This document shows, one piece after another, positions 2,519 to 13,840 of a DNA stretch of 35,026 nt. The translations under genes were made by a program, and so were the position numbers. Origin of the DNA: a virus. Position 1 is the first letter of the stretch, and each line of letters begins with the position of its first letter. The stretch covers positions 1 to 35,026 of the IMG/VR virus record IMGVR_UViG_3300030085_000396; one strand, 5' to 3'. The notes beneath the pieces are model-generated. The model had not been told where the DNA came from. It made no database searches and saw nothing but the letters and a program-made list of their open reading frames with translations.

Positions 2519-2798
2519 CGTTGAGATGCCTGCTCAGGTCATCTCCTGTTTCTTGTTCGTAGCCACCCGTCCTGACGGTTGCACTACAGCAGAGTTACAG
2601 GAAGAACTTGGTCTGACTGCTGCCAGCATGTCCCGTACCACAACGTGGCTCACTGGTCAGCACCGCAGCAATCCAAAGCGAGGCCTCAACCTGATCACAA
2701 AGGAGGTGTACCAACCAAACAAACGCCTGCGTTACCTGCGACTTACACAGCAGGGACGCAACCTTGCCAAACAACTATCTACCCAACTCAATGGCTGA
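2442..2798 (+). CDS. MarR-like winged-helix regulator
   Basis: A 118-residue protein. Residues about 25-105 give a winged helix: 'PAQVISCFLFVATRPDGCT' (helix 1), 'TAELQEELGLTAASMSRTTT' (helix-turn-helix with the MarR-type recognition helix 'AASMSR'), then a wing and 'KRLRYLRLTQQGRNLAKQL', the usual MarR strand with 'LT.qGr.l...l'. MarR proteins are dimeric repressors. It overlaps the integrase start by 8 nt, so the two are probably co-transcribed, and it may control the integrase or the early promoter. No ligand-binding features can be read. Confidence 0.65.
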   Translation: MDAVNIGTRSDMLRLLGVIETLRVLDVEMPAQVISCFLFVATRPDGCTTAELQEELGLTAASMSRTTTWLTGQHRSNPKRGLNLITKEVYQPNKRLRYLRLTQQGRNLAKQLSTQLNG

Positions 2799-3741
2799 AT
2801 TCCTTACATGGGGTCAAGCACTTGATTACACGGTCCGATACAAGGACACGTGGAAGGTAAGTCACCCACCATCCAAGACTGTCCGCATTAACGCAAATCA
2901 TGCGACTCAATTTTGGTCACGAGGTATGCGTATTGCTGACATCAATCAAGGAACGATCGATGAACTCAAAACAGATTACTGCTATGGGCTTCACAATCAC
3001 ACGAACACAACCGTCAAAAAGATCATTGCATCAGTGCAAACATGCCTCAATTACTGCATTGACCGATCTAAAATTGAGCCAGGCAATCCTCGCCATCAAT
3101 CACACTTCAATTACCAAGGACGGTATTCCTTTGATTCCGTACGGAACAACAGAGTAGAACGCATCATTCTCACACCTGCTGAGATTGATCATCTACATGC
3201 TTGTGCCAAGACGTGTAACGAGGATGTGTTAGCTGAGGCTATTTGGCTGGCTACCTACACATGTACTAGCCACCACGAATGGTCTCAGATTCAACCACGT
3301 GATCTTGTTTTGGGGGTTCCTACTCCTTACATCAAGATTGGTCGTCGTCCTGACTTCAAGGTCAAGCGTGGCTGTCGTGCACGGGATATTTACATCCCGA
3401 AGGACTCAGCCAGTGGTGATCGTCTCCTGCCAATGCTTACCAAGTACGCAGAAGACTTAAAGGATCATCCGACGCTTCCCATTTGGGGTGACTACCTGGA
3501 CAAAGAAACGTTACGGCGCAAGTTCAGCTACGTGAGGGACTATGCGGGTGTTGATCCAAAGTTCACACCTAACTGTCTCCGCCACTCAGGCATCACGTGG
3601 ATGGCTTGGAATGACGTTCACCCTGAGAAGGCAAGGCAGATCGCTGGTCACTCACAAATCAGCACCACGATCGGTTACTACACGCACATTGACCACAACC
3701 AACTGGCTGAGGCTCAAAGTCGTATCGGTACACGCCTGTAA
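2791..3741 (+). CDS. int: Tyrosine recombinase / phage integrase
   Basis: A 316-residue protein starting at ATG 2791, preferred over the in-frame TTG at 2764. The N-terminal core-binding domain spans about 1-115 and the catalytic domain about 120-310. The C-terminal signature is clear: 'NCLRHSG' (R264, H265), 'AGHSQISTT' (H287) and the nucleophile region 'GYYTHI' (Y296/Y297). Two usual catalytic positions differ: the 'tGlR.sE' box reads TCTSHHEW, with Ser160 where Arg I is expected, and the first His of H-x-L-R is Asn261. The gene is followed directly by a tRNA-Leu fragment, the classical int-attP arrangement. It would catalyse site-specific integration, but activity is uncertain given these substitutions. 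Confidence 0.85.
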   Translation: MAEFLTWGQALDYTVRYKDTWKVSHPPSKTVRINANHATQFWSRGMRIADINQGTIDELKTDYCYGLHNHTNTTVKKIIASVQTCLNYCIDRSKIEPGNPRHQSHFNYQGRYSFDSVRNNRVERIILTPAEIDHLHACAKTCNEDVLAEAIWLATYTCTSHHEWSQIQPRDLVLGVPTPYIKIGRRPDFKVKRGCRARDIYIPKDSASGDRLLPMLTKYAEDLKDHPTLPIWGDYLDKETLRRKFSYVRDYAGVDPKFTPNCLRHSGITWMAWNDVHPEKARQIAGHSQISTTIGYYTHIDHNQLAEAQSRIGTRL

Positions 3742-6384: not shown

Positions 6385-6938
6385 TGGCACGAAACACTTT
6401 TGTTACTGAAGAGCCTGTAATCCTTGAAGGTTATCAGGCAGTAATGCAACCGTCTCAATATGGCTACTCACTTAAAGCCGTAGTTGATCAAGATCTGATC
6501 AATAAACTAGAAGATGATCGAACCGATTCACTCAAATGGGCTGAGTCGAAATTGAAGAATCCCAAGCGTTCTGTTCTTCGTCCTGAGCCTTGGGAAGAAG
6601 TTGCTGAAGACAAATATATTGTCAAGTTCAGCTGGAACGAAGAGACTAAACCTCCTGTTGTCGATACGGAAGGTTCACCTATCACTGATGTTCGTACACC
6701 AGTCTACTCTGGAAGCAAAGTAAAACTTGCGTTCTATCAAAAGCCTTATGTACTGAAGGATCAGACTACTTACGGTACGTCTCTCAAGTTGGTTGGTGTG
6801 CAGGTCGTTACTTGTAACGGAAATGCCAGTGTTGATACTGGTGACATGGCACCGGAAGATGTCGCACAACTGTTCGGTAAGACAGAAGGATTCAAAGCAA
6901 ACGATCCGAATGTTCAAACCGTAGAGGATGACTTCTGA
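6384..6938 (+). CDS. Single-stranded DNA-binding protein (gp2.5-like)
   Basis: A 184-residue protein in the gp2.5 position directly after RNA polymerase. It has a beta-rich OB-type body ('DKYIVKFSWNEE', 'KVKLAFYQKPYV', 'SLKLVGVQVVTC') and a strongly acidic C-terminus ending TVEDDF, with a terminal Phe. That tail is the hallmark of T7-type SSBs, used to contact DNA polymerase and primase-helicase. It protects single strands during replication. ATG 6384 overlaps the RNAP stop (TAATG). Confidence 0.85.
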   Translation: MARNTFVTEEPVILEGYQAVMQPSQYGYSLKAVVDQDLINKLEDDRTDSLKWAESKLKNPKRSVLRPEPWEEVAEDKYIVKFSWNEETKPPVVDTEGSPITDVRTPVYSGSKVKLAFYQKPYVLKDQTTYGTSLKLVGVQVVTCNGNASVDTGDMAPEDVAQLFGKTEGFKANDPNVQTVEDDF

Positions 6939-7111
6939 TGAATGACACTCAAATCTGGCCTTCTGAACCACCTATGACCTTCGACGAAAAATACACTGTG
7001 TCACACAACGAAAAAGCAGAAATGCTCAATGGACGCCTGGCAATGCTAGGTGTCATGGCTGCGCTAGGTGCGTATGCCTTGACTGGACAAATTATCCCCG
7101 GAGTTTGGTAA
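6938..7111 (+). CDS. hli: High-light-inducible protein (HLIP)
   Basis: A 57-residue single-helix membrane protein. The chlorophyll-binding helix carries the signature 'EKAEMLNGRLAMLGVMAA' (residues about 25-42; E-x-x-N-G-R-x-A-M) and ends 'TGQIIPGVW', the ending of cyanophage and Prochlorococcus-type HLIPs. HLIPs sit in the thylakoid membrane, bind chlorophyll/carotenoid and help protect or assemble photosystem II under stress. It overlaps the SSB stop (ATGA-type) and lies just upstream of psbA, consistent with joint middle-phase expression. Too short for many gene finders, but the motif is unambiguous. Confidence 0.93.
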   Translation: MNDTQIWPSEPPMTFDEKYTVSHNEKAEMLNGRLAMLGVMAALGAYALTGQIIPGVW

Positions 7112-7616: not shown

Positions 7617-8690
7617 ATGACTGCAACTATTGCACAGCAGAGGTCTTCCACCTGGGAGGACTTCTGCGCGTGGGTGACGTCCACTAACAACCGTCTATAC
7701 GTTGGCTGGTTTGGTGTCCTTATGATTCCATGCCTTCTAGCCGCAACCATTTGTTTTATTACGGCGTTCGTCGCAGCGCCACCTGTCGATATTGATGGAA
7801 TCAGAGAACCAGTATCCGGCTCCTTGTTGTATGGAAACAACATCATATCGGGAGCCGTCGTTCCGAGCAGCAATGCCATCGGACTTCACTTCTACCCAAT
7901 TTGGGAAGCTAATACACTTGATGAATGGCTCTACAACGGGGGTCCATATCAACTCGTCGTTTTCCACTTCCTCATTGGCGTCTTTTCTTACATGGGACGC
8001 GAGTGGGAACTTAGCTATCGATTAGGAATGCGGCCATGGATCTTCGTCGCTTACAGCGCACCAGTCGCGGCTGCTACTGCAGTCTTCTTGGTGTATCCAT
8101 TTGGTCAGGGTTCCTTCTCGGATGGTATGCCACTTGGAATCTCTGGGACGTTCAACTACATGCTCGTGTTTCAAGCGGAGCACAACATCTTGATGCACCC
8201 CTTCCACATGTTGGGAGTGGCTGGTGTCTTTGGTGGTGCCCTGTTCAGCGCGATGCATGGATCCCTAGTGACTTCTAGTCTGATCCGTGAAACAACGGAA
8301 GAGGTTAGTCAAAACTATGGATACAAATTTGGACAAGAGGAAGAGACCTACAACATCGTGGCTGCCCACGGATACTTTGGTCGTCTTATCTTCCAATACG
8401 CTTCTTTTAACAACAGCCGCAGCTTGCACTTTTTCCTTGCTGCTTGGCCGGTGGTTGGAATTTGGTTTGCAGCTCTCGGTGTTAGCACCATGGCTTTTAA
8501 CCTCAATGGTTTCAACTTCAACCAATCAATCCAAGCTCAAGGACATGTGGTCAACACCTGGGCTGACATTCTGAATCGTGCCAACCTCGGCTTTGAGGTT
8601 ATGCATGAGCGGAATGCACATAACTTCCCGCTGGATCTTGCATCAGCTGACACAACCCCTGTCGCGCTGAAAGCACCAGCAATCGGATAA
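7617..8690 (+). CDS. psbA: Photosystem II D1 protein
   Basis: A full-length 357-residue D1, the photosystem II reaction-centre subunit that turns over fastest in light. Hallmarks visible: '[13 protein letters not shown]', '[20 protein letters not shown]', '[15 protein letters not shown]', '[18 protein letters not shown]', '[20 protein letters not shown]' and '[14 protein letters not shown]'. A C-terminal extension follows the processing site after DLA and ends PAIG. Glu129 corresponds to position 130 of cyanobacterial D1, where Glu marks the high-light form. No intron or truncation. Cyanophages use psbA to keep photosynthesis running during infection. It stands in the replication module, after hli and the basic microproteins. 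Confidence 0.99.
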
Positions 8691-10797: not shown

Positions 10798-10909
10798 ACG
10801 TCCTAATCCTCCTACTGAGGAGATGATTAAAAAAGCACAATTTATCGACAAAACTTACATCTGGAAACATGCTGGTATTCGATCTGGAGACGGACGGTCT
10901 TCTAAATGA
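10760..10909 (+). CDS. Small basic ORF between primase and polymerase (49 aa)
   Basis: ATG 10760 to TGA 10907-10909. It overlaps the end of primase-helicase by 38 nt and the start of the polymerase gene by 41 nt, and fills the only gap between them. The protein starts MKQSNSTRQLIFKRPNPP and includes 'EEMIKKAQFIDKTYIWKHAG'. T7 also has small genes (4.x) in this position. No family recognised. The middle part (10798-10868) is covered by no other gene, which favours it being real. Confidence 0.5.
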   Translation: MKQSNSTRQLIFKRPNPPTEEMIKKAQFIDKTYIWKHAGIRSGDGRSSK

Positions 10910-11384
10910 TGTTACCCGTATTCACTGTTTGGTCATTCACGACTCGGAGGTTAATGAGACGTATGTATTTAACGACGAGGGTTCTGAAGAGCCGATCGTT
11001 CGTGGGATACAGCTGCTTGAACAAGCAGATATTATCTGCGGTCATAATGTTATCTCGTATGACATTCCAGTTATTGAAAAAATTTACCCGTGGTTTTCGT
11101 GCAAAGCCTTGGTCATTGACACCTTACTTCTGTCGAGGCTATATCACGCGAATATGCTCGAAGTAGATAAGCGGCTAGACAATAGCCGAATGCCACAGCA
11201 ACTACGAGGTAGACACTCGCTTGAATCCTATGGTTACAGGTTAGGTGAATACAAAGGTGAGTTTGGGAAGACCACTGATTGGAAAGAGTGGTCAAAAGAA
11301 ATGCAGGACTACTGCATACAAGATGTAAACGTTACACGCAAATTATGCGAACACTTCCACCCCTACCTGAGTGGGTCGCGTTAG
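10869..11384 (+). CDS. Family A DNA polymerase, 3'-5' exonuclease part
   Basis: A 171-residue frame holding a complete proofreading domain. Exo I is 'VFDLETDG' (D5, E7), Exo II is 'GHNVISYDIPV' (D65, the same number as in T7 gp5), and Exo III is 'YCIQD' (Y148, D152). The frame stops at TAG just after the point where T7 gp5 continues into its polymerase domain. The polymerase domain follows in the -1 frame. The two are therefore either separate subunits, a frameshift product, or one gene with a sequence error (see the split-polymerase finding). Confidence 0.9.
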   Translation: MLVFDLETDGLLNDVTRIHCLVIHDSEVNETYVFNDEGSEEPIVRGIQLLEQADIICGHNVISYDIPVIEKIYPWFSCKALVIDTLLLSRLYHANMLEVDKRLDNSRMPQQLRGRHSLESYGYRLGEYKGEFGKTTDWKEWSKEMQDYCIQDVNVTRKLCEHFHPYLSGSR

Positions 11385-12667
11385 AGCACAAGGTTGCACA
11401 AATACTAGCTAAGCAAGAACAACATGGATGGTATTTCGATGAGCGGTCTGCATGGCAACTTGCATCGTCTCTCCAACAAGAACTTCAAGATCTTGAAGAA
11501 GTACTTCGCACGCGACACCCTTACGTCGCAGGAAGTCGCTTCACTCCAAAACGAAATAACAAAACTAGCGGCTACATCCAAGGCACTGGATTAGTAGAAA
11601 AACATGAACATTGTGGTGAGCTAATCCCTATTGAACAATGTTCCTTCACCCGACTCAAAGAACTAAACCCAACCTCTCGCGATCACATCTCATGGATATT
11701 GCAAACGTACTATGGCTGGAAGCCAACCCAGATGACAGCTACTGGGAAGCCTATCGTGGACGAAGTTATTCTGACCGAGATTGGATCAGAGATTTCTACG
11801 ATGTTTGCGAGATGTTTGACGGTAACGAAAATGCTTGGGATGCTGTCGAACGGCACGAACGCATGGCTGAAACTATCCACGAAACATAATCGTATTCATC
11901 ACCATTGTTCAGTTGCTACAGCGACACATCGTTGTGCACATCGTAAGCCCAACTTGGCTCAAGTTCCTAGTGATCTTGAGTTCAGAGCATTATTTACAGC
12001 CACGCCTGGACAGGTGATGGTTGGTGCTGACCTTAGTGGTATTGAGCTGAGAATGCTCGCACATTACCTATCTAGGTACAGCACAGACTTTGCTGATGTC
12101 CTGTTGAATGGTGACATCCACCAAGTCAATGCTGACAAAGTGGGTGTGTCACGGCGACAGATTAAAACAATCACGTACGCCTGGTGCTATGGCGCAGGCA
12201 ACGAAAAGATAGGTCATAGTTATGACCCACAACTCTCTGCATCTAAAGCCAAAAAGAAAGGAGCAGAGATTAGAGAAGCATTCGTTGCAGCCATTCCTGG
12301 CATGGCTGACCTGCTATCAGCAATCGATGCTGCTTCTAAACGTGGCTGGGTGAGTTCTATTGATGGTCGGAAGATCATTCTTGATAGTCCTCACAAATGC
12401 CTTAACTTCCTACTCCAGTCAGGAGCCGGTGTTATCGCGAAGCGTTGGCTTGTTATCAACGACGAAATTATCCACCAAACAAAGTTGTGTGCATCACAGC
12501 TTGCATTTATACATGACGAATTACAGTTCGAGTGTGCCAAAGAGCACGCAGAAGACTTATCAACATCCTTGGTATTCAGCGCAGCAGCGGCTGGTGAGTA
12601 CTACAACCTCCGACTCCCAATTGCAGCAGAAGCCAAAATCGGGACAACCTGGGCGGAGGTTCATTGA
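11345..12667 (+). CDS. Family A DNA polymerase, polymerase part
   Basis: A 440-residue frame from ATG 11345, overlapping the exonuclease frame by 40 nt. 'EWVALEHKVAQILAKQEQHG' aligns with the T7 gp5 segment linking exo and pol domains. Motif A is 'GADLSGIELRMLAHYL' (about residue 228), motif B 'RRQIKTITYAWCYGAG' (about 270), motif C 'LAFIHDELQFEC' (HDE about 390). The Tyr in motif B matches T7 Tyr526. The thumb insertion that binds thioredoxin in T7 is shorter here. There is no clear Shine-Dalgarno before 11345, so separate initiation is not proven. It ends flush with the exonuclease gene. Confidence 0.9.
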   Translation: MRTLPPLPEWVALEHKVAQILAKQEQHGWYFDERSAWQLASSLQQELQDLEEVLRTRHPYVAGSRFTPKRNNKTSGYIQGTGLVEKHEHCGELIPIEQCSFTRLKELNPTSRDHISWILQTYYGWKPTQMTATGKPIVDEVILTEIGSEISTMFARCLTVTKMLGMLSNGTNAWLKLSTKHNRIHHHCSVATATHRCAHRKPNLAQVPSDLEFRALFTATPGQVMVGADLSGIELRMLAHYLSRYSTDFADVLLNGDIHQVNADKVGVSRRQIKTITYAWCYGAGNEKIGHSYDPQLSASKAKKKGAEIREAFVAAIPGMADLLSAIDAASKRGWVSSIDGRKIILDSPHKCLNFLLQSGAGVIAKRWLVINDEIIHQTKLCASQLAFIHDELQFECAKEHAEDLSTSLVFSAAAAGEYYNLRLPIAAEAKIGTTWAEVH

Positions 12668-13450
12668 ATGAAGTTATTGGTAGACGCAGACTTTATTGTC
12701 TATAAGTCCTGCGCTGCTGCTGAAACAGAAATCGACTGGGGTGATGATGTCATCCTTGTTACCAGTAAATTTAGCGATGCGTACAACAACGTTCTAAAAG
12801 AACTAAATAAAATCAAGAACGAGTTCATGTGGGATACACCTGAGCTTATTCTATTCTTCAGTGACTCAAAGAATTTTAGGAAGAAAATTTTTCCCGATTA
12901 CAAGGGACATCGGAATCGTAAAAAGCCCTGTGGCTATCGAAGAGTTATTGAGCAACTTAAAAACGAATACGAAGTCATCCGGTTGCCTGAACTGGAAGCA
13001 GATGATGCTATGGGTATTTACGCGACAGCTAATCCTGGCAACATCATTGTTAGTCCTGACAAAGACATGCGCCAGATTCCTGGTCGTGTCTACAACCTAG
13101 ACGAAACGATTCATGTCACACCAGAGGAGGGTGCCAAGTGGCATCTGATTCAAACACTTGCTGGTGACCAAACAGATGGTTATAGCGGTGTCCCAGGCAT
13201 TGGTGTGAAGCGTGCAGTAGCTCTCTTTGATGAAGACGGTTACAGCTGGGAGACAGTACTGAAAGCATTTGCAAGTAAGGATCTCGGTGAAGATGCTGCA
13301 TTGATGAACGCACGTCTTGCACGAATTCTTACCTGTAATGACTATGACCAAATCAACAGACAAGTCATTCCTTGGACCCCCACCGCCGGTTACAGAATTG
13401 ACGATGGAGCAGCAGTTCAAGATGAGAAGGATAGAGGATCTACTACCTGA
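12668..13450 (+). CDS. 5'-3' exonuclease (gp6-like, FEN/PIN family)
   Basis: A 260-residue enzyme that degrades host DNA and removes RNA primers. Acidic metal ligands are seen at 'LLVDADFIVYK' (D6, D8), 'ELEADDAMG' (E110, D112, D113), 'SPDKDM' (D131, D133) and 'AGDQTDGYSGVPGIGVKRA' (D167, D170), the last being the helix-hairpin-helix DNA-binding region of FEN nucleases. The start codon follows the polymerase stop with no spacing. The last 16 codons overlap the NblA-like gene. Confidence 0.93.
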   Translation: MKLLVDADFIVYKSCAAAETEIDWGDDVILVTSKFSDAYNNVLKELNKIKNEFMWDTPELILFFSDSKNFRKKIFPDYKGHRNRKKPCGYRRVIEQLKNEYEVIRLPELEADDAMGIYATANPGNIIVSPDKDMRQIPGRVYNLDETIHVTPEEGAKWHLIQTLAGDQTDGYSGVPGIGVKRAVALFDEDGYSWETVLKAFASKDLGEDAALMNARLARILTCNDYDQINRQVIPWTPTAGYRIDDGAAVQDEKDRGSTT

Positions 13451-13580
13451 TGCTGACAAGAAAGATCTGATCACGGTCTTTCTTGCTCTTCAAAAGCAGA
13501 ACTTTGTTCTATCTAATACTGTCACTAATCTCATTAAGCAATGGCCGAATCACCCAGCCACTACACCAGAGGTCAAATAG
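13404..13580 (+). CDS. nblA: NblA-like phycobilisome degradation adaptor
   Basis: From ATG 13404 the protein (58 aa) begins MEQQFKMRRIEDLLPDADKK and continues with 'ITVFLALQKQNFVLSN' and 'LIKQW'. NblA proteins are about 55-65 residues with the same start (LSLEQQF.lR.fe..v), a second helix after a short turn and a C-terminal helix ending near Lys-x-Trp. The residues just upstream in frame are TEL-T, which also fits the NblA N-terminus, so the true start may be ATG 13344 or 13338 despite greater overlap with the exonuclease gene. NblA tethers phycobiliproteins to the Clp protease, dismantling the antenna and freeing amino acids. Assignment by pattern. Confidence 0.72.
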   Translation: MEQQFKMRRIEDLLPDADKKDLITVFLALQKQNFVLSNTVTNLIKQWPNHPATTPEVK

Positions 13581-13840
13581 AAGTATGGGACTTCATTAGA
13601 GACCAAGACCTCAACTATCATCTTGGCAATGCTATTAAATATATTTGCAGAGCCGGTTTCAAAAGTAATAACACAAAGACTCAAGACCTTAAGAAGGCTA
13701 TCCACTATCTTGAAAATGAACTCCACCACTGCACATTGCAGATCGAAAAGTCTGAGCGATCAAGCAATCGAATTCCGGTCAGCGTATGGGATCCCGAACG
13801 CGACGGACAACCGGACTATGCAACGGGATTTGATCGCTGA
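13541..13840 (+). CDS. DUF3310 protein (gp1.7-like)
   Basis: A 99-residue protein. 'HYTRGQIEVWDFIRDQDLNY' followed by 'HLGNAIKYICRAGFK' and 'DLKKAIHYLENEL' is the DUF3310 signature (HY...iE.id.i....l....GnaiKYi.RaG.K....eDl.Ka..yL). T7 gp1.7, which carries this domain, is a nucleotide kinase that affects dTMP/dGMP use. The domain ends near residue 70; the rest, 'WDPERDGQPDYATG', is likely flexible. It overlaps both neighbours and sits with MazG-like and RNR genes, pointing to nucleotide metabolism. Confidence 0.8.
   Translation: MAESPSHYTRGQIEVWDFIRDQDLNYHLGNAIKYICRAGFKSNNTKTQDLKKAIHYLENELHHCTLQIEKSERSSNRIPVSVWDPERDGQPDYATGFDR

Follow-up and report, generated by a model that had tools for sequence, protein, structure and literature searches.

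What is encoded by the short open reading frame that straddles the junction between an exonuclease gene and a DUF3310 gene in the viral record IMGVR_UViG_3300030085_000396? The window analyzed here is the whole 35,026-nucleotide stretch of this IMG/VR record. A sequence-only reading had proposed that the frame encodes an NblA-like adaptor for phycobilisome degradation. In our analysis, positions 13344-13580 are very probably the nblA gene of a T7-like cyanophage, encoding a 78-aa helix-turn-helix protein that would act as a ClpC adaptor in phycobilisome proteolysis. The locus is organized as follows:

12668..13450, + strand: T7 gp6-like 5'-3' exonuclease (PF02739, 46.6 bits)
13344..13580, + strand: nblA, 78 aa (PF04485, 30.5 bits; start assigned by conservation and synonymous constraint; AlphaFold2 model)
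13541..13840, + strand: DUF3310 gene (PF11753, 61.5 bits)

As originally noted, the frame contains EQQFKMR, ends at 13580 (stop codon 13578-13580), and overlaps both neighbors. The last 107 bases of the exonuclease gene are shared with nblA in a different frame, and the last 40 bases of nblA are shared with the DUF3310 gene.

Membership in the NblA family

The 78-aa protein scores above the curated cut-off of 25 bits of the Pfam NblA profile (E = 5e-7), and the match covers residues 18-66 and profile positions 1-49 of 50. This is the sole NblA match in the 35 kb record, and the same profile detects 27 of 32 diverse relatives at E <= 0.1. A family profile built from 61 relatives was searched against the PDB sequences; the top four matches, 3cs5 (E = 1e-4), 1ojh (1e-3), 2q8v (0.13) and 2qdo (0.15), are all NblA crystal structures, with E-values that are modest throughout (1e-4 to 0.15). 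The phage protein has low sequence identity to cellular NblA. Its conserved proline run falls opposite PPLP of 3cs5 in the alignment, and window residues L63 and K65 are paired with the Leu and Lys within ELLK of 1ojh, the C-terminal residues of Anabaena NblA that we take to contact the phycobilisome. Among the relatives, the Leu at L63 is invariant, and the Lys is variable in some, e.g., in S-TIP37.

The AlphaFold2 model of the monomer is a helix-turn-helix, with helices at 21-33 and 39-65 and pLDDT of about 90 over the domain, so that the two-helix hairpin anticipated from the sequence was recovered, along with a significant profile match for the longer starts. Searches with Foldseek and VIA-align using this monomer model, a very small hairpin, yielded nothing significant and listed no NblA entry. 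The assignment of the product of 13344-13580 to the NblA family is supported by the profile matches and the predicted fold. PHROG 27006, currently annotated as 'unknown function', matches the protein with E = 4e-21, which supports relabeling this group as NblA.

Phage context

Two photosynthesis genes in the same record had been pointed out before, and both were detected by profile search:

6938..7111, + strand: hli, high-light-inducible protein, 57 aa (PF00504, 24.2 bits; cut-off 22.3)
7617..8690, + strand: psbA, photosystem II D1 protein (PF00124, 301 bits)

The nearest isolates genome-wide, S-TIP37 and S-SBP1, are both Synechococcus phages, in agreement with the host inferred initially; Synechococcus is a host with phycobilisomes. 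S-TIP37 belongs to clade B, and psbA and hli are present in nearly all clade B phages and absent from clade A (PMC9381782). The source phage is described here as a marine T7-like cyanophage similar to those of clade B. In the clade A phages Syn5, P60 (presumably a member of this clade), S-CBP42 and S-TIP28, no nblA was reached by tblastn. The small genes that follow the exonuclease gene in three of these phages (Syn5 gp30, P60 gp19 and S-CBP42_0054) were considered as NblA candidates and rejected, having neither a Pfam match nor visible resemblance.

Two other features of the window can be mentioned. The DNA polymerase is split into an exonuclease part and a polymerase part encoded in overlapping frames (10869-11384 and 11279-12667), an arrangement also mentioned in the records of S-TIP37 and P-SSP7. 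In addition, a tyrosine integrase gene (PF00589) is located at 2764-3741 in this T7-like phage.

Proposed function

NblA serves as an adaptor that brings phycobilisome proteins to ClpC, the solved structures are dimeric four-helix bundles, and for cellular NblA, binding of phycobiliproteins and ClpC as well as bleaching are established (PMC7966870). Activity of phage NblA is described in PMC9602691 and PMC12892361. With the NblA literature as the guide to dimerization, target, protease and physiological effect, the following scenario can be proposed for the window protein. Translation from the ATG within the terminal part of the exonuclease gene would produce the 78-aa helix-turn-helix protein, the monomers of which would pair into a four-helix dimer during infection; the dimer would then attach to phycobiliproteins in the host's phycobilisome and hand them over to the host ClpC/ClpP protease. 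The antenna would shrink and amino acids would be freed, and meanwhile, the phage-encoded D1 (psbA) and HLIP would help keep photosystem II running. The window phage might, in other words, destroy the antenna while retaining photosystem II, as suggested in the sequence-only reading.

Orthologs in Prochlorococcus-phage lineages

The distribution of the family bears directly on the target. Orthologs of the window gene persist in two lineages that include Prochlorococcus-infecting isolates:

L094:1195-1506 (P-SSP7) and L106-L185: ortholog of the P-SSP7/P-SSP3 type
L098:2180-2407 (P-GSP1) and L186-L240: ortholog of the P-GSP1 type

The hosts of these lineages are those of the isolates, nearly all IMG/VR contigs in both lineages being without a known host: MIT9312 for P-SSP3 and MED4 for P-GSP1, the one isolate of its lineage. 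The P-SSP7 record names no host, and the P-SSP2 record names a Synechococcus strain. Prochlorococcus has neither phycobilisomes nor nblA (PMC7439483).

The P-SSP7-type proteins are the more NblA-like of the two and have a longer C-terminal tail that extends across the DUF3310 start. In the P-GSP1 type, HQ replaces EQ, and neither the proline run nor the C-terminal Trp is present; nevertheless, this group aligns with the window family with a probability of 98 (E = 6e-14), its gene overlaps the end of the exonuclease gene at the same position, and the AlphaFold2 model is again a helix-turn-helix. Matches to the NblA profile are weak (best E-value 1.9e-4 for the P-SSP7 type, 0.07 for the P-GSP1 type), and the protein of P-SSP7 itself has no Pfam NblA match. 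Both groups are under purifying selection: synonymous diversity in the overlap core is 0.008 in the P-SSP7 type and 0.000 in the P-GSP1 type, and pN/pS outside the overlap is 0.26 and 0.14, respectively.

Because these relatives are found in phages of phycobilisome-free Prochlorococcus, the family is not tied to a phycobilisome target everywhere. The orthologs in these lineages could tentatively be viewed as NblA proteins that now serve Clp as adaptors for another host protein, although we consider this to be somewhat less probable than the contrary. Purifying selection on these orthologs also raises the question of whether the window protein itself is a repurposed NblA-derived adaptor that kept ClpC docking and acquired other cargo, such as a host enzyme or a defense protein. 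Such repurposing appears improbable for the window copy, which groups nearest to Synechococcus phages, still has the EQ motif, proline run and C-terminal LxK-W segment, and scores above the NblA cut-off, whereas matches to this profile are weak or absent in the diverged lineages. An adaptor for phycobilisome proteolysis is the reading that we adopt for the window gene.

Start codon and length of the protein

Three candidate starts (13338, 13344 and 13404) had been left open, and the comparison of 95 loci aligned on the EQ motif singles out the second one. An ATG is aligned to 13344 in 93 of the 95 relatives, the two exceptions being S-SBP1, with TTG at this place, and S-SRP01, with an ATG five codons downstream. 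The start at 13338 was rejected, with an aligned ATG in only 27 of the 95, and so was that at 13404, where an ATG is found in 69. Of the distinct sequences with Tyr at the exonuclease codon that bears the 13344 ATG, all 62 use TAT, whereas both TAT and TAC occur in every one of the ten further Tyr columns that are well populated (321 TAT versus 408 TAC over all exonuclease Tyr codons, the start column included). Thus, nblA starts with the ATG at 13344 and encodes 78 aa.

A 58-aa product starting at 13404 would be closer to the typical length of cyanobacterial NblA (~60 aa), but is highly unlikely to be the true one. An ATG is missing at this place in 26 of the 95 relatives (LTVEQ, LTLEQ), and the domain begins upstream of it, so that the shorter form loses profile positions 1-3 and scores 24.6 bits, slightly below the cut-off. 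Moreover, the N-terminal extension shows synonymous constraint and contains a conserved GPPPP motif.

The annotation of P-SSP7 (PSSP7_019A) begins exactly at the ATG aligned to 13344; in other phage records, nblA is omitted or begins at different codons. In S-RIP1 (L095:1201-1401), an apparent frameshift interrupts the nblA frame and the exonuclease aligns in two pieces, so that the two are either pseudogenes or affected by sequencing errors. In one IMG/VR contig (L069:1504-2265), the nblA frame continues uninterrupted across the DUF3310 region and into a MazG-like gene, apparently because of a fusion or an error in a single base.

Selection on the overlapping frames

Relatives of the nblA protein were found in about 37 phage records (tblastn; RefSeq duplicates included) and in 119 IMG/VR stretches. 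In the exonuclease frame, mean synonymous diversity drops from 0.44 before the overlap to 0.20 at 13344-13403 and 0.015 at 13404-13447. The difference between the upstream region and the overlap is significant (Mann-Whitney p = 2.5e-11, with codon columns taken as independent, though the sequences are kin). Beyond the overlap, pN/pS in the nblA frame is 0.25, indicative of purifying selection, with synonymous sites close to saturation. Conservation of the start, synonymous constraint in the overlap and this pN/pS value jointly identify the frame as coding, with the start at 13344; hence, it is confirmed as a real gene. An open frame arising by chance across the exonuclease end and the interval up to the DUF3310 gene would fit with its short length, the overlap with both neighbors and the lack of a clear Shine-Dalgarno sequence upstream of 13344 (by eye), but is ruled out by the near disappearance of synonymous variation from the exonuclease frame and by the pN/pS in the non-overlapping part, with the PF04485 match and conservation in more than 100 genomes and contigs further against it, and hardly any probability remains for this explanation.

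Significance and comparison with known systems

Viral NblA makes a phage able to dismantle the host antenna, and the window gene is one more member of this group. In PMC12892361, which cites earlier literature, the effect of viral NblA is put at as much as 5% of the light captured by photosynthesis worldwide. The present analysis firmly settles the family's start codon, for which GenBank records differ where they do not omit the gene, provides PHROG 27006 with an annotation, and adds a set of orthologs in Prochlorococcus-phage lineages, where the usual NblA target does not exist.

Viral nblA of this kind is already published. As reported in PMC9602691, Nadel et al. 2019 predicted nblA in 14 strains of marine and estuarine cyanopodoviruses, and Nadel et al. 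2025 (Nature 648:434), as cited in PMC12892361 and PMC13386980, deals with viral NblA of oceanic cyanophages. The window gene is therefore correctly identified but not new, and the expectation that it would be easily missed applies to the many GenBank records that omit it or misplace its start, but not to the literature.

The best relatives, e.g., S-TIP37, S-RIP2/KBS-P-1A and S-CBP1/3/4, are cyanopodoviruses in which nblA is likewise located between the exonuclease and DUF3310 genes; the window gene differs from these isolate genes by sequence divergence only (~60-72% identity). With cyanobacterial NblA (3cs5 of Synechococcus elongatus, 1ojh of Anabaena, and 2q8v/2qdo), the window protein shares the helix-turn-helix and the L-[ST]-x-EQ-x-F N-terminal motif, in addition to the proline run of 3cs5 and the Leu and Lys of the 1ojh segment. 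Unlike the cyanobacterial proteins, it has an N-terminal extension to 78 aa and a C-terminal tail of its own, and its gene starts inside another gene. PHROG 27006 represents the same protein family, as do the nblA products of the freshwater cyanophages Ma-LMM01, MaMV-DC and PaV-LD and of the marine cyanomyoviruses S-TIM5 and S-SCSM1; by the description in PMC9602691, marine cyanopodovirus nblA clusters apart from that of freshwater cyanophages and cyanomyoviruses.
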